NCBI RefSeq assembly: GCF_003691585.1
Contig: NZ_CP033169.1
Span: 3,100,001 to 3,164,000, forward strand
Origin: Biomaibacter acetigenes
Lineage (GTDB): Bacteria > Bacillota > Thermosediminibacteria > Thermosediminibacterales > Tepidanaerobacteraceae
Reading direction: 5' to 3'
DNA: 64,000 bases
A program made the translations under genes and the position numbers. The notes below the pieces were generated by a model, which searched no databases, had not been told where the DNA came from, and saw only the letters and a list, made by a program, of their open reading frames with translations. Positions 9,449-20,105 of this stretch are shown here, one piece after another (within the stretch, counting starts at the first letter, position 1; each line of letters starts with the position of its first letter).

Positions 9449-9560
9449 CATTGTGATGTGAGAGGTGGGAGGTGTGATGTGAGATTAAGTAGGAATCGCC
9501 CTTCGGCAAATTCTTATATTCCCACTTCCAACTTCTCACTTCGCACTTCGCACTTCTGAT
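9449..9560 (-). repeat. heptamer/hairpin element (locus C)
   Basis: Second full copy, between tRNA-Met and tRNA-fMet, about 85 percent like locus B by eye. The left arm is GTGATGT GAGAGGT GGGAGGT GTGATGT. The central hairpin is degraded to CGCCC TTC GGCAAATT. The right arm gains extra heptamers (CACTTCG repeated). Confidence 0.85.
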
Positions 9561-9561
9561 A

Positions 9562-9638
<77 letters not shown>

Positions 9639-9685
9639 TCGTTTTCGATGTTCCGCTTTTATTACCGTATTACCGGCACTTTTAT

Positions 9686-9714
9686 ATTGTATAATAAAAT
9701 TGCCGTTTCGTCAA
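9686..9714 (-). promoter_or_regulatory. tRNA operon promoter
   Basis: Minus-strand TTGACG (9714-9709), 17 bp, TACAAT (9691-9686), about 45 bp upstream of tRNA-fMet. Confidence 0.75.
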
Positions 9715-9784
9715 GGGCATGAAAGCTATTTTCATATCTCTGGCGAAACCTGCTTTAATTTTTTAAAATAATATGCATAGACAG

Positions 9785-10165
9785 TTAGTAAGGTTTCTTT
9801 ATTTTGATGTCCTTCATCGGAAAATGTTTTATATTAAGCGTTATCAATTCTGCATCAAGGTAATCAGCCGTCGCAGCGATTATTGCATCACCGATATTCA
9901 GGGCATGAGATTTAAAAAAGTCATGCATGTATCTTCCTGCTCTTTCCCCGATTTCGCGATTAACATCCTTTTCTTTATAAATCTCCAGTAAATATTCAAC
10001 ATCTTCGATTTCTTTTTCTCTAATACCTGCCAATAATTCGATTCTTGTTACTACTGAGTAATAAACTTCTCCGGCTTCTGATAAGCTTTTTAATGTTTTT
10101 TTTGCAGGTTCTTTTCCTTTTAAATGGTCAATAAATATATTTGTATCAATCAGATATTTCTTCAT
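9785..10165 (-). CDS. vapC: PIN-domain toxin, VapC family
   Basis: 126-residue PIN-domain ribonuclease, the toxin of a type II toxin-antitoxin pair. It begins MKKYLIDTNIFIDHLKG, with the first acidic residue in LIDTN; further conserved acids lie in the RIELLAG region and in GDAIIAATA. The longer frame to 10192 is not used, because the ATG at 10165 overlaps the antitoxin stop as ATGA, the usual coupling. The target RNA cannot be told from sequence. Confidence 0.9.
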   Translation of the reverse strand: MKKYLIDTNIFIDHLKGKEPAKKTLKSLSEAGEVYYSVVTRIELLAGIREKEIEDVEYLLEIYKEKDVNREIGERAGRYMHDFFKSHALNIGDAIIAATADYLDAELITLNIKHFPMKDIKIKKPY

Positions 10166-10413
10166 TCGCTTATCTCCAGTCTCTTGTTCCATGAACTTCG
10201 TATCTTTTCTATATAATCTGTTCCTATATCATCCCTATCTTTCCATAAGCCAAAGGTTTTTTCAATGATAATATCCTTATCCATTCTATCTTTTTCTACA
10301 TATTCGTTTATGGCTTCCCTTATACATTCAGCCATGGTCATATTATTCAATTTGGCCAAATTCTTTAGTTTTTCTTTTTGAACCTTTGTAAGGTAAATTT
10401 GAGTTCTTTCCAT
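10162..10413 (-). CDS. vapB: ribbon-helix-helix antitoxin of VapBC pair
   Basis: 83-residue CopG/ribbon-helix-helix type protein. The N-terminal strand is ERTQIYLTKVQKEKL, then helices with MTMAECIREAINEYV; the acidic C-terminal half probably wraps the toxin. The start ATG at 10413 follows AGAGGTGAG. It is first in the operon and probably represses it. Confidence 0.85.
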   Translation of the reverse strand: MERTQIYLTKVQKEKLKNLAKLNNMTMAECIREAINEYVEKDRMDKDIIIEKTFGLWKDRDDIGTDYIEKIRSSWNKRLEISE

Positions 10414-10535
10414 TATCTCACCTCTTATACATTATTATTATACATTTATGTTTATAAAAAGTAAATACTCTTTCTGCATACAACATGGTTGTATAAAAAC
10501 TCCCGAAAAAAATATATCACCGTAGAAGGATATAA

Positions 10536-10560
10536 ACAAAAAAGCGGCATTTGCCGCTAT
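10536..10560 (-). terminator. terminator after ycsI
   Basis: Minus-strand AGCGGC, AAAT, GCCGCT, TTTTTTG, immediately after the ycsI stop. Confidence 0.85.
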
Positions 10561-11361
10561 TTAAAAAACACTCAACTGTTCATCTTTTACATCTGTTATA
10601 AACATGTGACCCGGCGAATGGGTAATCATTATTTCGGGCTTGGATTTCATAGCCACCGCCTGGGGTGTGACACCGCAAGCCCAGAACATGGGAACTTCCC
10701 CATCCCTTATCTCAACAGCATCTCCAAAATCCGGCCTATCCAACGATTTGATACCAATCTTTGACGGCTCCCCTATATGGACAGGAGCGCCATGGACCGC
10801 CGGGAATCTGGATGTCACCTGGACTGCTCTTATAACCAGGTCCTGTGGAATGGGTCTCATGCTCACCACCATATTTCCGCGGAAGACTCCAGCGGGTCGG
10901 GTCTGAATGCTGGTTATATACATAGGCACATTCCTGCCCTGCTCTATATGTCTCACCGGTATGTCGTTTTCCAGCAGAGCCTTTTCAAAGGTGAAACTAC
11001 ACCCCAGAAGAAATGCCACAAAATCATCCCGCCAGTAGCTCGTTATATCATTTACTTCCAGTTCCAGTTGGCCTTTTCTATAAATTCGGTATTTCGGTAT
11101 ATCGGTGCGAAGATCCGCACCCGGCGCCACACCTCTGGGCTCATGGCTCCCTATATCGGTAACATCCAGGATGGGACAGGGCTTTGGATTGCGATAGGCG
11201 AAAAGCAGAAAATCATAGGCTAACTCTTTTGGGAGTATAACCAGATTTGCCTGGGTATATCCCAGGGCTAAGCCACAGGTAGGCCCTGACCATTTTCTTT
11301 CACGAATAAGCTTACGAGCATCATTTGCCCCTATTTTTGACAAATCATTTTTAACATCCAC
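10561..11361 (-). CDS. ycsI: YcsI/DUF1445 putative hydro-lyase or D-glutamate cyclase family
   Basis: 266 residues, full length for the DUF1445 family (annotated as putative hydro-lyase; some members are linked to D-glutamate/5-oxoproline chemistry). Features visible are an N-terminal helical part, then GPTCGLALGYTQANLVILP and FWACGVTPQ near the C-terminus, with conserved Cys. GTG start at 11361 after GGGGG. It is last of four genes pxpA-pxpB-pxpC-ycsI, the same partners as the B. subtilis ycsFGI-kip cluster, which supports a role in 5-oxoproline or related cyclic amino-acid metabolism. Confidence 0.85.
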   Translation of the reverse strand: MDVKNDLSKIGANDARKLIRERKWSGPTCGLALGYTQANLVILPKELAYDFLLFAYRNPKPCPILDVTDIGSHEPRGVAPGADLRTDIPKYRIYRKGQLELEVNDITSYWRDDFVAFLLGCSFTFEKALLENDIPVRHIEQGRNVPMYITSIQTRPAGVFRGNMVVSMRPIPQDLVIRAVQVTSRFPAVHGAPVHIGEPSKIGIKSLDRPDFGDAVEIRDGEVPMFWACGVTPQAVAMKSKPEIMITHSPGHMFITDVKDEQLSVF

Positions 11362-11373
11362 TACTGTTGCCCC

Positions 11374-12381
11374 CTATTTCAAAATATCAATGTTTACATT
11401 AAACACTCTACCATTAACAGTCACATCAAAATACCTCGACGGTACAAGTGTTTCTTTTATTTTATTTAAAACTTCTTCCTTTTCTTTCAACAATTGATGG
11501 GCTTCTTCAACACTGATAGCCCTGAACTTTATCCTATCTCCCGGTTTTAACTGGGCAAGTTTAGATAGGTCAATGGAAATTACTGTGGCGATTTTTGCAT
11601 AGCCGCCAGTGGTCTGGGCATCTTTGAGCATTATTATGGGCTTCCCATTGCCCGGTATCTGTACTGCTCCGGGCATGATACCGTCAGTAATTATGTCATG
11701 CTTTTCTTTCGCCTTTATTGCAGGACCATCAAGTCTGTAGCCCATCCTATCGGAGTCTTTTGTGATAGTATAGGTGGAATTCAAGAAAAGTTCAATGACC
11801 TCCCTGGAAAAATAATCGTGTTGAGGGCCCGGAACTATCCGTATTTCTTCTTCAGCAGAATAATGGGGAATATATTTTTCGTTTACTTTAAAAAAATGTG
11901 TAAAAAGTGTATGCCGCTTCAGCGATAATACATCCCCTTTTTCCAGCCGCCTCCCCTTTATGCCCCCAATGCTGCCCCTGGTATATGTAGAGACGCTCCC
12001 CATAACCACGTCACCATCAAATCCGCCCGAAACAGCCATGTACGCCCTGCAACCCGTTTTCACTGGAGCAAAAGAGAGGGTTTCACCCTTCCTCACAGGA
12101 AACGACGACCAACAGGGCCTTTCCACGCCATTTACCAGGGGATTTATCCATGCACCCGTTATCGCCACCGCCGTGTCCTGCAGGACTTCGAGGCTAGGAC
12201 CCATGAGGGTTATTTCCAGAACCGGGGCATTTTCGACATTTCCCACCAGTATGTTGGCCACCCGGAAGGCAAACTCATCCATGGCACCGGAAACCGGCAC
12301 TCCCTGGCTTTCATATCCGAACCTGCCCATGTCCTGTACGCTCGTAAAAAGTCCGGGATTTATAACTTTAAAACATTCCAT
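11374..12381 (-). CDS. pxpC: 5-oxoprolinase subunit C (KipA-like biotin-independent carboxylase domain)
   Basis: Subunit of the ATP-dependent prokaryotic 5-oxoprolinase PxpABC, which opens 5-oxo-L-proline to glutamate. About 335 residues, family pattern GLFTSVQDMGRFGYESQGVPVSGAMD at the N-terminus and MLKDAQTTGGYAKIATV in the C-terminal half. Two ATGs are possible (12387 and 12381); the second has GAGGGG six bases upstream. The Shine-Dalgarno overlaps the pxpB stop, so translation is coupled. Confidence 0.92.
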   Translation of the reverse strand: MECFKVINPGLFTSVQDMGRFGYESQGVPVSGAMDEFAFRVANILVGNVENAPVLEITLMGPSLEVLQDTAVAITGAWINPLVNGVERPCWSSFPVRKGETLSFAPVKTGCRAYMAVSGGFDGDVVMGSVSTYTRGSIGGIKGRRLEKGDVLSLKRHTLFTHFFKVNEKYIPHYSAEEEIRIVPGPQHDYFSREVIELFLNSTYTITKDSDRMGYRLDGPAIKAKEKHDIITDGIMPGAVQIPGNGKPIIMLKDAQTTGGYAKIATVISIDLSKLAQLKPGDRIKFRAISVEEAHQLLKEKEEVLNKIKETLVPSRYFDVTVNGRVFNVNIDILK

Positions 12382-12392
12382 TTTCATCCCCT

Positions 12393-13121
12393 CTACCCGT
12401 CATAATTATAGGTTTTCACTTCATAGGCGTTTCTGTTGACTTGCTGCTCTATCTCATGAAATTCATCTGGAGTTATCCTCACAAACTTTATGTAATTGCC
12501 GGCTTCCAGTAAAATGGGTTTTTCCCTGTGAGGGTCATAAAGTTTAACCGGCGTCTTACCTATGAGTCTCCACCCCCCGGGGCTCGTGACAGGATATATA
12601 CCGGTCTGACTACCCGCAATCCCCACCGAACCTGCCGGAATCTCAGTCCTGGGTTTTTCGAGGCGGGGTGTGGCTATTTTTTCCGACATGCCTCCAAGAT
12701 ATGCAAAACCCATGGTAAAGCCGAGCATATAGATCCTGTAGGCGCTCCCGGTATGGATTTTTATTACTTCTTCCGGAGTCATATTGTGATATTCCGCCAC
12801 AAATTCAAGGTCCGGCCCAAAATCGCCGCCATAGGCTACCGGAATCTCGATGACCTTTGGTTTGAATTCCTCCACGCTAGTGGACATGTCACTTTTGGCT
12901 ATCAATGCTGTCAGGTCATCGACCGTAAGTTTGAGTGGCTCGTATTTTATGAGAAGAGACCGATACGTAGGAATAATTGATGTAATACCTGTAACATCCT
13001 GTCTTTTCAGGGCGCTATAAAGGTTCAGCACCCTCTTATTGCATTCCTCGGATATCTCGTTCCCGTATTCCACCACTACGGCTTTGTCCCCGGCCGGCAG
13101 AATTCTCGGTATTTTATACAT
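12393..13121 (-). CDS. pxpB: 5-oxoprolinase subunit B (KipI-like)
   Basis: 242 residues. Works with PxpC to phosphorylate 5-oxoproline; in Bacillus the homologue KipI also inhibits sporulation kinase KinA. Motifs: PAGDKAVVVEYG at the N-terminus, TMGFAYLGGM and the PAGSVGIAGSQTGIYP stretch in the cyclophilin-like second half. ATG at 13121 behind GGAG. The gap of 76 bp to pxpA holds no obvious signal. Confidence 0.92.
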   Translation of the reverse strand: MYKIPRILPAGDKAVVVEYGNEISEECNKRVLNLYSALKRQDVTGITSIIPTYRSLLIKYEPLKLTVDDLTALIAKSDMSTSVEEFKPKVIEIPVAYGGDFGPDLEFVAEYHNMTPEEVIKIHTGSAYRIYMLGFTMGFAYLGGMSEKIATPRLEKPRTEIPAGSVGIAGSQTGIYPVTSPGGWRLIGKTPVKLYDPHREKPILLEAGNYIKFVRITPDEFHEIEQQVNRNAYEVKTYNYDG

Positions 13122-13197: not shown

Positions 13198-13965
13198 TTA
13201 TAAGAAACTGGCCATTGGAGCAATTTTTACGCCATTTTCCTCCAGGACTTTTCTTAATCTTAGTGCAAATTCTACAGCCTGTGGGTTGTCTCCATGGACG
13301 CATATGGTGTCGGCCCTGACTTTTATATGGCTGCCATCCACCGCCTCCACCATACCCTCTTTTACCATTCTCAATACTCTCCTGCAGGCAAGGTCTTCGT
13401 CATGTATCATGGCATTGGGCAACTTTCTGGAAACCAGTGTCCCGTCGGGGTTGACATTCCTGTCGGCAAACACCTCGCAGGCAAACTTTAACCCCGCTTT
13501 CTCGGCCGCTTTCTGCATGGCGGTATTTGCCATAGCCACACATATGAGATTCTTATCCACCGAAGCTATAGCTTGAGCAATGGCATCGGCCAGCTTCTCG
13601 TCTGCGGCGGCCATGTTGTACAGAGCGCCGTGGGCTTTCACATGCTGCAATTTCATTCCATGACTTTCCGCAAAGGCTTTCAATGCGCCTATTTGATATA
13701 TTATGTAGCTTTTTATGTCCGATAGGGAAATGTCCATGTTCCTCCTGCCGAAACCCATGAGGTCTGGAAAACCGGGATGCGCTCCGACAGCCGCGCCGTT
13801 TTTTTCGCATAATCCCACAGTCCTTTCCATCACCACCGGGTCTCCCGCATGAAACCCGCAGGCTATGTTTGCGGATGAAACGTATTTTACAATTTCATCA
13901 TCCATGCCTATCCGGTACGCTCCAAAGCTTTCCCCTATATCGCTGTTCAAATCCACGACTGCCAT
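13198..13965 (-). CDS. pxpA: 5-oxoprolinase subunit A (LamB/YcsF family)
   Basis: 255 residues, usual length. Begins [20 protein letters not shown], followed by [13 protein letters not shown] and VKAHGALYN, all hallmarks of the family. It acts with PxpBC in 5-oxoproline hydrolysis. First gene of the minus-strand operon, ATG at 13965 after GGAGG. A near-consensus sigma-54 promoter lies 52-67 bp upstream, so expression should need the NtrC-type activator at 18756. Confidence 0.94.
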
Positions 13966-14016: not shown

Positions 14017-14032
14017 TGCAATTTTTATGCCA
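14017..14032 (-). promoter_or_regulatory. sigma-54 promoter of pxpA operon
   Basis: On the minus strand TGGCATAAAAATTGCA: GG and GC are separated by exactly 10 bases, and the sequence matches the -24/-12 consensus TGGCAY-N5-TTGCA. It is located upstream of pxpA and below a palindromic site at 14108. Confidence 0.85.
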
Positions 14033-14107
14033 TAAAACAGAGTCTGACTGGAAGCCTTTATTGGTTTCACTGATAGAATTGCCCCGAAAAATTTTATCTA
14101 TACTTCT

Positions 14108-14121
14108 GTGCGATTTCGCAC
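14108..14121. promoter_or_regulatory. palindromic enhancer site upstream of pxpA sigma-54 promoter
   Basis: GTGCGA TT TCGCAC is a perfect inverted repeat about 77-90 bp upstream of the -24 element, a typical enhancer distance. The 11-mer CGATTTCGCAC within it recurs at 17146, upstream of the second sigma-54 promoter. Confidence 0.7.
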
Positions 14122-14216
14122 GTATAATATTACCTCTTCACTTTGCATCTCGCAAGGTGTATTATAATGCGTAGGAAAGCAAAGATATTCTTTATTATAT
14201 GGCTTTCCGTAACGCA

Positions 14217-14267
14217 TTTCAAAAAAGCTACCGCTATTATTGCTTATAATAAAAGCTTTTTTATTTT
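14217..14267 (+). promoter_or_regulatory. possible attenuator hairpin in the symporter leader
   Basis: AAAAAAGCT near 14221 can pair with AGCTTTTTT near 14255 across a long AT-rich loop, followed by T-rich sequence 25 bp before the symporter start. The rest of 13966-14292 holds the sigma-54 promoter and enhancer; no further gene is seen. Confidence 0.35.
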
Positions 14268-14292
14268 CTTAAAAAGCGCCGGGAGGATTTTT

Positions 14293-15759
14293 ATGAATCA
14301 ATCTGTGCTGTTCATGCTTTTCTTTCTTGTTTATACTTTTTTAATGATATATTCGGGAAGAAGCGGTTTTTACGACACATACAATGTAAGAGATTTCTTT
14401 GTGGCCGGCAATTCCCTGGGGGTTTTCCTGAGCACCGCCACTTTTGTGGCCACATGGTTCAGTGCAGCTTCGTTTCTCGGCCTCGGAAGCTCCCTGTATA
14501 TTTACGGCGTGTCATCAATAATTTACAGTATATTGCAGTGGTTTGCCGGAGCGATTTTTCTCTTTTTTCTTGCTTCCCGCATAAAGGATTATGACATTCT
14601 GACTTTTTCGGAGTTTTTCTATGTCAGGTTTAACTCCAGATTGATGCAGTTTTCAGTGGCATTTTTGATGATAGTATCCTATATCCTATATATAACCATG
14701 CAGATAAAAGGCTTCGGCCTGGTGACGGAAATGTTGCTGAACATCCCCTACGATGCTGCCATCCTTCTGGTGTATCTTTATATCCTCTATACCACCTTCG
14801 GCGGCCTGTATTCCGTTGTAAAAACCGATGCCGTAAATACGTTCATCATAGTTGCGGCTTCAATATCTTTCGGCCTTTTTATCATCCGGGCAAATCACGG
14901 TGTTGCAAACATCATTGCCGGTGCGGCAAATATTAATACTTTGCCCGTGTCGGGATGGGAAACCCCCACCCCCAGGGGCGGCCTTCTGGATATCTCCTGC
15001 GGCGGGCTGCAGCCTCCAATATACCTTTTTACCTCCTTTTTCGGCTGGGGCCTGGGCCTGGCCGCAAATCCTCAATACGCCATAAGAATGATATCGGCAA
15101 GGGATAAATCCGTGGCAAGAAAAATGGTCATATTTTCCATAGCCGTTCTTTCGGTAGTATATGCCTTTATTATCGCGGGTTCCATCGGTCTCAGAGTTTT
15201 GATTCCCACCGCCCCACATATAAACAATATAGACGAGATAATTCCATCGCTCTTTTCCGGCATTGCCCCCGGCTATTCCGTTGGGATTATATTAATAGGA
15301 ATCATAGCGGCGTCGGTCTCCACTGCCAATTCCGAGCTCCTGCTTATTGCCAACAGTTTTACAAACGACATATTCAAAAATTTGTATTTCGGACAACTGG
15401 ATGACGACAGAATGTTATTTTTAAACCGTGTGGTCATAGCCGCAGCCGGCACCGTATCCCTGATCCTTTCCTTTAACCCGCCGATTAAGGTAATAGAATT
15501 CGGCGGAAACATCTGGGGAGTTTTCGCCAGTTCGACCTTTATCCCCCTTTATGCCGGGGTATTCATGAAAAAAGCATCCGGACATGCTGTGGAAGCCGCT
15601 TTTTTCGCCGGGCTGACATCATATTTGCTCTTTCTTGCGACCATACCTTACCTCGCAAATTCGACGCCGAACAATATCCATCCGGGCCTGTTTGCCTTTG
15701 CGGTATCCGGCCTGGCGTTCATTATAGCGCAAAGGAGGTCAAATGATGCGAAGCATTGA
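14293..15759 (+). CDS. sodium/solute symporter (SSS/SLC5 family)
   Basis: 488-residue polytopic membrane protein, about 13 helices. Family motifs include the GGLYSVVKTDAVNTFIIV signature region and WGLGLAANPQYAIRM. The longer frame from 14143 is rejected, because GGGAGG precedes the ATG at 14293. The 3-prime end overlaps the histidine kinase gene by 17 bases. By context the likely cargo is 5-oxoproline or a related amino acid. The arrangement recalls CbrA of Pseudomonas, where an SSS domain is fused to a kinase. Substrate is inferred, not shown. Confidence 0.88.
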   Translation: MNQSVLFMLFFLVYTFLMIYSGRSGFYDTYNVRDFFVAGNSLGVFLSTATFVATWFSAASFLGLGSSLYIYGVSSIIYSILQWFAGAIFLFFLASRIKDYDILTFSEFFYVRFNSRLMQFSVAFLMIVSYILYITMQIKGFGLVTEMLLNIPYDAAILLVYLYILYTTFGGLYSVVKTDAVNTFIIVAASISFGLFIIRANHGVANIIAGAANINTLPVSGWETPTPRGGLLDISCGGLQPPIYLFTSFFGWGLGLAANPQYAIRMISARDKSVARKMVIFSIAVLSVVYAFIIAGSIGLRVLIPTAPHINNIDEIIPSLFSGIAPGYSVGIILIGIIAASVSTANSELLLIANSFTNDIFKNLYFGQLDDDRMLFLNRVVIAAAGTVSLILSFNPPIKVIEFGGNIWGVFASSTFIPLYAGVFMKKASGHAVEAAFFAGLTSYLLFLATIPYLANSTPNNIHPGLFAFAVSGLAFIIAQRRSNDAKH

Positions 15760-17191
15760 ACTTAAAATTCTCGTGCCCTTTCTTGCCATCATCATTATAT
15801 CGCTGGGCGTGGTCGGAAGCGTATCATATTACGGTTCCTATAAAATATTTGAATCGTTAATCAAACAGCCATTTTACGCAAATACCGGTATAAATGCTGA
15901 TTATATCTCAAACCAGCTTCTGGAACTTCAAAAGTACACAATTCTTGTGGCAATAATAGCCATAATCGCTGCCGCACAGCTCACCATCTTTTTTTCATAC
16001 AGTCTCGCAAGGCCTATAAAAAAGCTGGCTGCGGCATGCGATGAGGTGTCAAAGGGAAATTTTAATATAACCCTCGATTACTCTCGAAAAGATGAGATAG
16101 GGATATTGAAAGATGCATTTATTCGAATGACCGCAAAGCTACAAGAGCATATTGCAAAGGTCCTGGAGATAACTTCCCTCAACCAAAAAATCATAGATGG
16201 GGTAAATTACGGGATAGTAGTGTTCACTAGGGGCCGGAAAAAACTCCTGGTAAATCGTCTGGCTTCTCATGAATTCAATAACTATCCTATAATAAGAGAA
16301 TTTGTCGAAAACTTAATACAGGATTTCCTGTCAGGAAAAGCCCCCATATCATCCAGTTCAACAATGATAAATGATAAAAATGGGTCTTCAAAATTCGTGG
16401 AATACGACATCCAGCCCTCCGAGGATAACTTCATCTTATGCTTTTCGGATATTACCGAAAAAGAGCGGTTCAAGCAAAAAATGGAATATATCAACAGGCT
16501 TACATCGATAGGGGAAATGTCTGCGGCTCTTGCTCACGAAATAAGAAACCCTCTCCAGGGCATTAAATCCTGTCTTCAGGTGCTGGAAACCAGGTTTTTA
16601 AGTGCCGATGATACTTCTACCGCCCTTTTGAACCTTATATACGGGGAAATAAAACGCATAAACAACATCATTTCAGATTTGTTAAATTATGCAAGACCAT
16701 CTGAACCAAAACCAGAATATATAAACCTCAGACAAGAAATAGAGGATGTCCTGCCGCTGCTTGCTCATTTATACAATAAAAAACACATTTCCATAAAGAT
16801 TGACATAACTCCAGACTGTAACAACATTTTCATAGATAAATCCCACTTCAAACAAATCCTTATAAACCTGTTGTCAAATTCTATCCATGCAAGTCAAGAA
16901 AATACTGAAATTGTAATCTTCACCACCAAAAATAAGGATGAGATAGTATTAAGCATCAGGGACCAGGGAAAGGGAATTCCGGAGGAATACCTGGAAAAGG
17001 TGTTTATTCCCTTTTTCACCACCGAGGAAAATGGAACCGGCCTTGGACTCTCAGTAGTCCAGAGCCTTGTACTAAAAAATCACGGCCACATATGGATTCA
17101 GAGCAAAAGCGGCATCGGGACCACCATCAACTTTGCTTTTCCGTTCGATTTCGCACATTTCGTGCGCTATTACGATAAAGCCATTACTTGA
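15743..17191 (+). CDS. membrane sensor histidine kinase (NtrB/CbrA-like output)
   Basis: 482 residues. Two TM helices (about 7-29 and 66-88) flank a short external loop of about 35 residues; then HAMP (88-140), a PAS-like segment, HisKA with AHEIRNPLQG (phosphoacceptor His near 264), and an HATPase with DQGKGIPEEYLEKVFIPFF and GTGLGLSV. The small external loop suggests that it senses through the membrane or the symporter encoded by the overlapping upstream gene rather than binding a large ligand. Expected partner: the NtrC-type regulator at 18756. Start ATG (15743 or 15746) after AAAGGAGG. Confidence 0.92.
   Translation: MMRSIELKILVPFLAIIIISLGVVGSVSYYGSYKIFESLIKQPFYANTGINADYISNQLLELQKYTILVAIIAIIAAAQLTIFFSYSLARPIKKLAAACDEVSKGNFNITLDYSRKDEIGILKDAFIRMTAKLQEHIAKVLEITSLNQKIIDGVNYGIVVFTRGRKKLLVNRLASHEFNNYPIIREFVENLIQDFLSGKAPISSSSTMINDKNGSSKFVEYDIQPSEDNFILCFSDITEKERFKQKMEYINRLTSIGEMSAALAHEIRNPLQGIKSCLQVLETRFLSADDTSTALLNLIYGEIKRINNIISDLLNYARPSEPKPEYINLRQEIEDVLPLLAHLYNKKHISIKIDITPDCNNIFIDKSHFKQILINLLSNSIHASQENTEIVIFTTKNKDEIVLSIRDQGKGIPEEYLEKVFIPFFTTEENGTGLGLSVVQSLVLKNHGHIWIQSKSGIGTTINFAFPFDFAHFVRYYDKAIT
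17146..17166. promoter_or_regulatory. enhancer-like inverted repeat upstream of NRAMP gene
   Basis: CGATTTCGCAC (17146-17156) repeats the 11-mer of the pxpA enhancer. CGCAC and GTGCG form an inverted repeat with five bases between. It lies inside the last codons of the kinase gene, about 95-115 bp before the -24 element at 17261. Confidence 0.65.
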
Positions 17192-17230
17192 ATAGATTTT
17201 AAATGTACTTCATAACCAACTTTCATAATA

Positions 17231-17260
17231 GAAAGCCTCTCACCGAGAGGCTTTTTTATT
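17231..17260 (+). terminator. terminator after symporter-kinase operon
   Basis: AAGCCTCT, CACCG, AGAGGCTT and a T run. Confidence 0.85.
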
Positions 17261-17276
17261 TGGAATAAAATTTGCA
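17261..17276 (+). promoter_or_regulatory. sigma-54 promoter of NRAMP-like gene
   Basis: TGGAATAAAATTTGCA: GG and GC are 10 bases apart and the -12 element is TTTGCA. It begins directly after the terminator and about 40 bp before the start codon. Confidence 0.75.
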
Positions 17277-17314: not shown

Positions 17315-18538
17315 ATGACAACTTTAAAAACAAAGGAGGAGTTGAATTTGGAAAAAAAGCCGTATTCATTAAGTATGCTGGTAGGTGCAGCTTTTCTCAT
17401 GGCCACATCGGCCATAGGCCCGGGTTTTTTAACACAGACCGCCGTGTTTACTCAGAAATATCTGGCCAGCTTTAGTGCAATAATACTCATCACAATTATA
17501 GTAGACATTATAGTCCAGATAAACATATGGCGCATTATTGTGGCTGCGGGCAAGCGCGGTCAGGAAATAGCAAATGATGTCCTGCCGGGCCTCGGCTATT
17601 TCATATCGCTCATTGTCATGATAGGGGGAATTGCTTTCAATATAGGAAATATTGCCGGAACCGGCATGGGCTTGAATACCCTTTTCGGTATTGACGCCCG
17701 CGTAGGTGCCGCCATTTCCGGCATCATCTGCATACTAATATTCTTATCGAAAGAAATCGGAAACGCCATGGACAGGTTCGCCCAGATCCTGGGCGTTTTG
17801 ATGATCCTGCTGGCCGTTTATGTGGCCGCGGCAGCGCACCCTCCACTGGCTCAGGCGGCAGTTCAGACCTTTGCCCCGAGCAAATTTGAATTTCTGCCCA
17901 TGATAACGCTCATAGGTGGATCGGTGGGCGGGTACATCACATTTGCCGGGGGTCACAGGCTGATCGAAGGCAATATGAAAGGCGGCGCAGCGGTGGGAGA
18001 AGCCACCAAAAGCGCCACTCTGGGAATTCTGGTGGCGGGCATAATGAGATACGCACTCTTTTTTGGCGCTCTGGGAATAGCCTTGAAGGGTATTAAATTT
18101 GATCCGGTAAATCCGGCCGCAACACCCTTTTTAAATGTGGCAGGCACGGTGGGTTACAAGATTTTTGGCCTGGTGCTCTGGTCGGCTGCCGCCACCTCCG
18201 TCGTTGGCTGTTCTTTCACTTCCCTTTCTTTTATAAAAACCTTTTTCAAACCGGTAGAAGAACACTTTTCTAAATTCATTATAGGTTTTATAGTCTTTTG
18301 TACACTGTTCTTTATACTGGTAGGAAAACCTGTAACCCTCTTGATACTAGCAGGAGCCATAAACGGTTTAATCCTCCCGCTCACTCTGGGTTCCATGCTC
18401 CTGGCCTGCAGGAATAAAAAGATAGTGGGTGATTATCATCATCCAACACTGTTAATCGTCCTTGGTATACTGGTCTTCATACTGACGCTGTATGGCGGAA
18501 TCAGTTCGTTATCAGGTATCAATCAGCTCTTCAAATAG
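17315..18538 (+). CDS. ycsG: NRAMP-superfamily transporter, YcsG-like
   Basis: 407 residues, about 11 membrane helices. It aligns in style with NRAMP proteins and with Bacillus YcsG, the carrier of the ycsFGI-kip cluster. The metal-ligand motif of TM1 (DPGN in true NRAMP metal carriers) reads GPGF here, and the TM6 region shows GGSVGGYITFAGG rather than an MPH motif, so a metal substrate is unlikely. Its own sigma-54 promoter and the pxp neighbours suggest uptake of 5-oxoproline or a relative. ATG start after AGGGGTGAG. Specificity is inference. Confidence 0.85.
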   Translation: MTTLKTKEELNLEKKPYSLSMLVGAAFLMATSAIGPGFLTQTAVFTQKYLASFSAIILITIIVDIIVQINIWRIIVAAGKRGQEIANDVLPGLGYFISLIVMIGGIAFNIGNIAGTGMGLNTLFGIDARVGAAISGIICILIFLSKEIGNAMDRFAQILGVLMILLAVYVAAAAHPPLAQAAVQTFAPSKFEFLPMITLIGGSVGGYITFAGGHRLIEGNMKGGAAVGEATKSATLGILVAGIMRYALFFGALGIALKGIKFDPVNPAATPFLNVAGTVGYKIFGLVLWSAAATSVVGCSFTSLSFIKTFFKPVEEHFSKFIIGFIVFCTLFFILVGKPVTLLILAGAINGLILPLTLGSMLLACRNKKIVGDYHHPTLLIVLGILVFILTLYGGISSLSGINQLFK

Positions 18539-18615: not shown

Positions 18616-18755
18616 CACATGTATTTTTAAAGAAAAGAAAAAGAGGGCCTTCCTCATAGAACATCCATTTTATAGCGTCTGTACTAATAATCACAAAATC
18701 TTGTAAAAAAGGATATAAGCTTTTTTCGTCGAATTATGATACTAAGGTGATTTTT

Positions 18756-20105
18756 ATGAGCTATAAAATTCTCATAATAGATGATGAGTCTACCATATGC
18801 AGCGCATTAAAGCTATCTCTGGAAATTGCAGGTTATAAGGTCAATATAGACTTTTCGGCAAAAGAAGGGCTTTCCCGACTTCGAACCTTTTTACCAGATG
18901 TAGTGGTGCTTGACCTCCGCCTTCCCGATATGGATGGTCTTGCCGTTCTTTCAGAAATAAAAGAATTCGATGAAAGCATCATAGTTATTATGATAACGGC
19001 TTTCGGGGAGACAAAAACAGCGGTGGAAGCCGTAAAGAGGGGTGCTGTAGACTATCTGGTAAAGCCTTTTGACACAAATGAACTTGAAATTTCAATAAAA
19101 AGGGCTTTAAAAGAGAGGTCCCTAAAACATGAAAACGAAATCCTCAGGCAAAGAAGTGAGAAAAGCGAATTTATAACAAAAGATCCCTCTATGCTTGATA
19201 TTCTTGCAAGACTTGACTCTATAGCTAGAGTAGACTCCAGCGTCCTCATTATCGGTGAAACAGGAACCGGCAAGGAACTCATCGCCGGTTTGATTCACAA
19301 AAAAAGTTCCAGGGCATCGGAACCATTTATCACCTTAAATTGCAGCGCTATACCATCCAACCTCTTTGAAAGCGAGCTTTTCGGTCATGAAAAAAATGCG
19401 TTCACCGGAGCGTCCGCAAGAAAAAAGGGGCTTCTGGAGCTGGCCGATAAGGGAACTTTTTTTCTTGACGAAATTGGCGAACTGCCTCCCGATCTCCAGG
19501 CGAAGCTGTTGAGATTCCTTGAGGATAGATCAATTCGACGCGTTGGAGGCCTTGTCAACATCCCCCTGGATGTCAGAATAATAGCCGCCACCAACAAAAA
19601 TCTCAAGGAAGAAATAGAAAAAAACAACTTCCGGAGCGACCTTTACTACAGGCTGAATGTGGTCCAAGTAAAAATACCTCCCTTAAGGGAAAGGCCGGAC
19701 GATATTCCACTGCTGCTGGATTATTACAGGCGGGTATATAACCGTCATTTTAACAAAAATATCTGCGGATTTTCCGAAAAGGCCCTCAAGCTGCTCACAA
19801 ATTACTCTTGGCCCGGCAATGTCCGGGAGCTTAAGAATATAGTGGAAAGGGCTTTTATTCTGGCCAGGGGTTTAAGGATAACAGAAAGAGAATTGCCCCA
19901 GGAATTGACTAAAGGAAAATATATAACACCTCAGATTCCCGATGAAATAGAAAGGTTCATTCCATTGGAAGAACTCGAAAAACAGTATATTGCCACAGCT
20001 CTTGACGCAACTCACTGGAATATATCAAAAGCCGCAGAACTGCTGGGGATTAGCCGATTTGCACTGCAGCGCCGGATAAAAAAATATTTTGAGAAATCCC
20101 TTTAA
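18756..20105 (+). CDS. NtrC-family sigma-54-dependent response regulator
   Basis: 449 residues. Receiver domain with phospho-acceptor D53 in VLDLRLPDMDG, and K103 in LVKPFD; AAA+ domain with GETGTGKE (167-174), the sigma-54 contact loop NAFTGA (214-219, first Gly of GAFTGA replaced by Asn), Walker B GTFFLDEIGEL; C-terminal Fis-type HTH ending NISKAAELLGISRFALQRRI. The start is ATG 18756 (AAGGTGA upstream), not the GTG three codons earlier. It is the evident activator of both sigma-54 promoters in the island, paired with the kinase at 15743. Confidence 0.95.
   Translation: MSYKILIIDDESTICSALKLSLEIAGYKVNIDFSAKEGLSRLRTFLPDVVVLDLRLPDMDGLAVLSEIKEFDESIIVIMITAFGETKTAVEAVKRGAVDYLVKPFDTNELEISIKRALKERSLKHENEILRQRSEKSEFITKDPSMLDILARLDSIARVDSSVLIIGETGTGKELIAGLIHKKSSRASEPFITLNCSAIPSNLFESELFGHEKNAFTGASARKKGLLELADKGTFFLDEIGELPPDLQAKLLRFLEDRSIRRVGGLVNIPLDVRIIAATNKNLKEEIEKNNFRSDLYYRLNVVQVKIPPLRERPDDIPLLLDYYRRVYNRHFNKNICGFSEKALKLLTNYSWPGNVRELKNIVERAFILARGLRITERELPQELTKGKYITPQIPDEIERFIPLEELEKQYIATALDATHWNISKAAELLGISRFALQRRIKKYFEKSL

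Follow-up and report, generated by a model that had tools for sequence, protein, structure and literature searches.

The window analysed here (64,000 nucleotides of Biomaibacter acetigenes DNA, positions 3100001-3164000 of a 3.4 Mb genome in one contig) places 5-oxoprolinase genes beside a two-component system, which raises the question of what controls 5-oxoproline use at this locus. Leftward from 13965, the genes run pxpA, pxpB, pxpC and a D-glutamate cyclase, and rightward from 14290 a solute:sodium symporter (SSF), a HAMP-HisKA-HATPase kinase, an NRAMP-like transporter and an NtrC-type response regulator (Table 1). All three 5-oxoprolinase subunit genes occur together, although PxpC, at 276 bits, misses its equivalog cut-off of 500 bits. 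The response regulator combines the three domains of an NtrC-type protein and has full-length relatives with known structure (4l4u and 5m7n), and rpoN is present in 22 of the 22 genomes of the order. The symporter and kinase genes overlap by 17 bp and their adjacency is kept in relatives. The kinases of the orthologous loci L119 and L120 lack a stretch of about 100 residues that separates HAMP from HisKA in that of the window. A second pxpABC set is encoded elsewhere in the same genome (G000:C1:414911-415666; pxpA 69% identical). On sequence evidence, we consider it very likely that two dyads in this locus are enhancers of the regulator at 18747-20105 and drive sigma-54 promoters of pxpABC and of the transporter.

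Table 1. Genes and predicted regulatory elements of the 5-oxoproline locus, in window coordinates
Feature	Position	Strand	Evidence or remark
D-glutamate cyclase / putative hydro-lyase, end of pxp operon	10561-11361	-	Pfam D-Glu_cyclase 6e-70
pxpC, 5-oxoprolinase subunit C	11374-12387	-	Pfam and NCBIfam
pxpB, 5-oxoprolinase subunit B	12393-13121	-	Pfam and NCBIfam
pxpA, 5-oxoprolinase subunit A	13198-13965	-	Pfam LamB_YcsF 1e-103; NCBIfam PxpA
sigma-54 -24/-12 promoter of pxpA(BC), TGGCATAAAAATTGCA	14017-14032	-	GG-N10-GC; conserved in orthologous loci
Enhancer (UAS) dyad 1, predicted, GTGCGATTTCGCAC, perfect	14108-14121		75 bp to pxpA -24 box; 23.2 bits
Solute:sodium symporter (SSF/SLC5), possible co-sensor	14290-15759	+	Pfam SSF 5e-39
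Membrane histidine kinase (HAMP-HisKA-HATPase)	15743-17191	+	Domain search
Enhancer (UAS) dyad 2, predicted, GTTCGATTTCGCAC, 1 mismatch	17143-17156		104 bp to transporter -24 box; 20.7 bits
Degenerate second dyad, GTGCGCTATTACGA	17162-17175		Only 0.2 bits in the window
Terminator-type hairpin and T-run, between dyad 2 and transporter -24 box	17230-17256	+	Fold -16.1 kcal/mol
sigma-54 -24/-12 promoter of NRAMP-like transporter, TGGAATAAAATTTGCA	17261-17276	+	GG-N10-GC
NRAMP-like transporter (PxpG/YcsG/PxpT type), probable 5-oxoproline uptake	17315-18538	+	Pfam Nramp 2e-22; role via PMC13274462
NtrC-type response regulator, proposed activator	18747-20105	+	Receiver, sigma-54 AAA+ and Fis HTH domains

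The initial annotation had read a sigma-54 box before pxpA and another before the transporter, and both were recovered at those places with GG and GC 10 bases apart. Against the consensus TGGYAYRNNNNTTGCW, the pxpA box is a full match and the transporter box deviates only at position 4 (A for Y). The transporter box is identical in the orthologous loci L114 and L118 and near-identical in L115, L116 and L120. Taken alone, the -24/-12 pattern is not significant in the window (48 matches with at most two mismatches vs 49 expected from shuffles). One such match, TGGCGTAAAAATTGCT (13219-13234, minus strand), differs from the consensus by one base and lies within the last pxpA codons, where it encodes GVKIA and hence may be coding only. 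On the symporter side of the divergent gap no correctly spaced box was found, and a symporter sigma-54 promoter was rejected; by eye, the spacing of TGGCTTTCCGTAACGCA at about 14201 is one base too long. The symporter leader (14166-14265) contains imperfect inverted repeats and a T-rich hairpin. A search for an RNA element there gave no Rfam match.

Upstream of the two boxes, the 11-mer CGATTTCGCAC occurs exactly at 14111-14121 and 17146-17156, as the initial annotation had noticed, and has no third copy in the 3.4 Mb genome. A frequency check in the genome, proposed with that claim, thus returned only the two promoter sites, but an order-2 Markov estimate gives about 0.7 exact copies per genome vs the two observed, so that the 11-mer, taken alone, is not rarer than expected by chance and is weak evidence. 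The case is carried by its two copies lying 3 kb apart before two -24/-12 boxes, and above all by conservation. The true common unit is a 14-bp dyad, GTKCGATTTCGCAC, and elsewhere in the genome it was never found with fewer than two mismatches. The half-sites had also been described as oppositely arranged (GTGCG-CGCAC vs CGCAC-GTGCG), which proved mistaken: the same dyad stands in the same arrangement at both promoters. The CGCAC-GTGCG reading at 17152-17166 joins the right half of dyad 2 to the left half of the degenerate dyad beside it, which is complete as a second dyad at the transporter promoter of L114, L116 and L118.

Searches with the kinase and the regulator identified orthologous clusters in seven further genomes from the order, giving eight loci with the window; L116 and L117 are identical across the promoter stretches and were counted as one. 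Dyad and -24/-12 box were found at the pxpA promoter in 8 of 8 orthologs despite differing spacing and flanks, the box taking the form TGGYAYRNNNNTTGC except in L120, which has GGGTAT at -24. Likewise, each of the eight transporter promoters pairs a GTTC/GTGC-type dyad with a box of the TGGAAY or TGGCAT type. The dyads lie 41-120 bp upstream of the boxes. With a scoring matrix built from the sites of the relatives only, the window excluded, the two window sites rank first and second (23.2 and 20.7 bits) and the next site in the 64 kb reaches 11.0 bits; no site in 3.4 Mb of simulated order-2 Markov sequence attains 20.7 bits. When the genus of the window was also left out of the matrix, the values were 22.8 and 20.4 bits, followed by 11.7. 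In eight distant syntenic clusters, in which the regulator is 45-51% identical and the gene order different, the best match of the whole locus falls, for six of them, in the regulator-pxp gap (P about 4e-11). The exceptions are L025, whose gap has no matrix dyad, and L026, where the gap dyad ranks second. This conservation points to predicted cognate dyadic UAS before the target promoters.

Across 26 whole genomes of the class, the combination of dyad and -24/-12 box occurs nine times, always in a pxp cluster, and the reversed control gave no match in these genomes. Since the combined pattern was drawn from these loci, its informative part is the absence of other matches. Contrast loci were found where pxpA occurs without the regulator (G007, G017 and the second copy in G000), and these have no dyad. 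Before pxpA of G017 and of the second G000 set there is neither dyad nor box. G007 (L207, about 9536-9760) has no symporter, kinase, transporter, regulator or dyad here, so that rplL abuts the pxpA promoter, and TGGCATAAAAATTGCA is nevertheless retained letter for letter as an orphan box. The locus is a regulon caught in decay, and a perfect box kept without regulator or dyad means that the box alone is no proof of control by the kinase-regulator pair. Two sigma-54 promoters with a common upstream enhancer, as first suggested for this locus, are nonetheless supported as a prediction by the rpoN distribution, the cognate kinase and regulator, co-conservation and the specificity of the pattern.

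Dyad 2 sits in the final codons of the kinase gene. In the window and in L114 it falls within the last 17 codons in codon phase 2 (PFDFAHF...), and in L116, L117, L119 and L120, from other genera, the kinase-tail dyad is in codon phase 1 (PRSFSH..., PCAISH...). The transporters of L115 and L118 are encoded past the regulator, in opposite orientation; each has GTTCGATTTCGCAC intact upstream of it, and neither kinase tail contains an intact dyad. The change of phase and the movement of the dyad with the transporter argue that selection acts on the DNA and not on the peptide, which makes the kinase-tail enhancer a clear case of DNA-level constraint within coding sequence.

These observations bear on other explanations of the elements. 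Chance sharing of the 11-mer, the kinase-tail copy being held by protein coding constraint, would agree with the 0.7 exact copies expected and with the coding position of the second copy, but we give it almost no credence in view of the relatives' matrix, the codon phase change and the intact dyad accompanying the relocated transporter. It is also very improbable that the elements are real, the -24/-12 boxes chance readings, and transcription driven from sigma-70 promoters: -24/-12 matches alone are indeed as frequent as in shuffles, but the boxes are kept at 8 pxpA and 8 transporter promoters among the orthologs although the flanks have diverged, and the number of sigma-70-like matches in the region equals that in shuffles. 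A little more weight, while still unlikely, goes to the dyads being operators of another regulator, such as a GntR- or ArsR-type pxp repressor like PxpR of Corynebacterium. Symmetric dyads suit many dimeric regulators, and pxpTABC of C. glutamicum is under a GntR repressor (PMC13274462). However, 41-120 bp upstream of -24/-12 boxes is an unusual place for a repressor, presence and loss of the dyad track the NtrC-type regulator, and the cluster yielded no other DNA-binding gene.

With the dyads read as enhancers of the NtrC-type regulator, the kinase would sense 5-oxoproline or a related signal, perhaps jointly with the SSF symporter whose gene overlaps its own, and would phosphorylate the regulator. 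The part of the symporter in sensing is suggested by the gene overlap and by likeness to CbrA and CrbS. Following established NtrC biology, the phosphorylated regulator would bind the dyads as a higher oligomer and, through DNA looping, activate sigma-54 polymerase for open complex formation. The first promoter would then yield pxpABC and the D-glutamate cyclase, and the second the NRAMP-like 5-oxoproline transporter. The hairpin at 17230-17256, whose layout is by eye the same in L114, L119 and L120, probably ends the symporter-kinase transcript ahead of the transporter promoter. As the transporter enhancer lies upstream of this terminator, we propose that the transporter is read only under active sigma-54.

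In the distant relatives L025, L026, L027, L029 and L030 (more weakly in L024 and L057), GAGCG/GTGCG-type dyads overlap the hairpin and T-run that immediately follow the regulator gene (L029:10396-10430, L030:10391-10440 and L025:10371-10445, e.g. AAGAGTGCGAAAGCGCTCTTTTTTTT), as if enhancer and terminator shared sequence there. The HTH of the regulator reads RFALQRR in the order of the window and mostly RFALKR or RFSLKR in the distant relatives. This change parallels the drift of the dyad from GTGCG to GAGCG, a parallel that is suggestive only.

CbrB is an NtrC-type sigma-54 activator. The CbrA/CbrB and CrbS/CrbR systems (SLC5-STAC kinases) resemble the present one in coupling a solute:sodium symporter to a kinase and in having nutrient-use targets (PMC7096432, PMC5715377). 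They differ in that SSF and kinase are fused, whereas here they are separate overlapping genes (also separate in L024 and L057, with a stop between), and in their targets, here 5-oxoprolinase and a transporter. PxpR-pxpTABC of Corynebacterium glutamicum shares the enzyme, the NRAMP-like transporter and a single dedicated regulator, but PxpR binds 5-oxoproline and acts as a GntR-type repressor, in contrast to the two-component sigma-54 activator predicted here (PMC13274462). The sigma-54/EBP regulons of Clostridiales (Nie et al. 2019, PMC6615313) are alike, in the main text of that study, in having the EBP gene beside target operons, palindromic UAS and TTGGCATNNNNNTTGCT promoters. The same text gives response regulators as only about 10% of EBPs and makes no mention of oxoprolinase, LamB/YcsF or NRAMP. 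The same genes, including NRAMP-like PxpG/YcsG, are found in pxpAGBC of Clostridioides difficile and ycsFGI-kipIAR of Bacillus subtilis (PMC13274462, PMC10448178), the latter operon differing in being under AhrC, MntR and CcpA, with YcsG claimed as a Mn importer (PMC10448178). The accessible literature reports no sigma-54 control of these C. difficile and B. subtilis operons, and the main texts of PMC6615313, PMC12316311 and PMC7438776 do not mention such control of pxp genes.

As far as the readable literature goes, a conserved two-promoter sigma-54 regulon for 5-oxoproline use, as predicted from sequence comparison, would therefore be a new assignment, of an ordinary mechanism. It gives a regulator, a predicted binding site and a promoter class to the 5-oxoproline pathway, whose control in anaerobic Bacillota has received little study. 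A broader picture, taken as a whole, seems to us to have somewhat less than an even chance. It comprises a split transceptor (SSF symporter and separate kinase) running a dedicated 5-oxoproline sigma-54 regulon across several Bacillota lineages, a kinase C-terminal enhancer kept in different frames, a transporter exchanged in several genera for one of a different NRAMP subfamily while the promoter stayed the same, and an enhancer pair that in distant relatives doubles as the terminator hairpin of the regulator gene.

DPGN in helix 1 is the metal-binding motif of metal-transporting NRAMP proteins, and the transporter of the window has, by eye, AIGPGFLTQ at the expected place. Sequence comparison found no relative of this transporter with a solved structure. 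Its homologues PxpT and YcsG are needed for growth on 5-oxoproline (PMC13274462), and manganese import has also been reported for YcsG (PMC10448178). The gap between kinase and regulator in L116, L117, L119 and L120 is occupied by another NRAMP subfamily, nearer to MntH and only about 25% identical to the window's transporter (in L116 at 9632-10867), with the same type of sigma-54 promoter upstream. This is a non-orthologous displacement. Shared control with pxpABC and a second NRAMP type taking over the same promoter provide a regulatory argument on the disputed substrate of PxpG/YcsG (5-oxoproline vs manganese). A member of the other subfamily also adjoins pxpA in L208.
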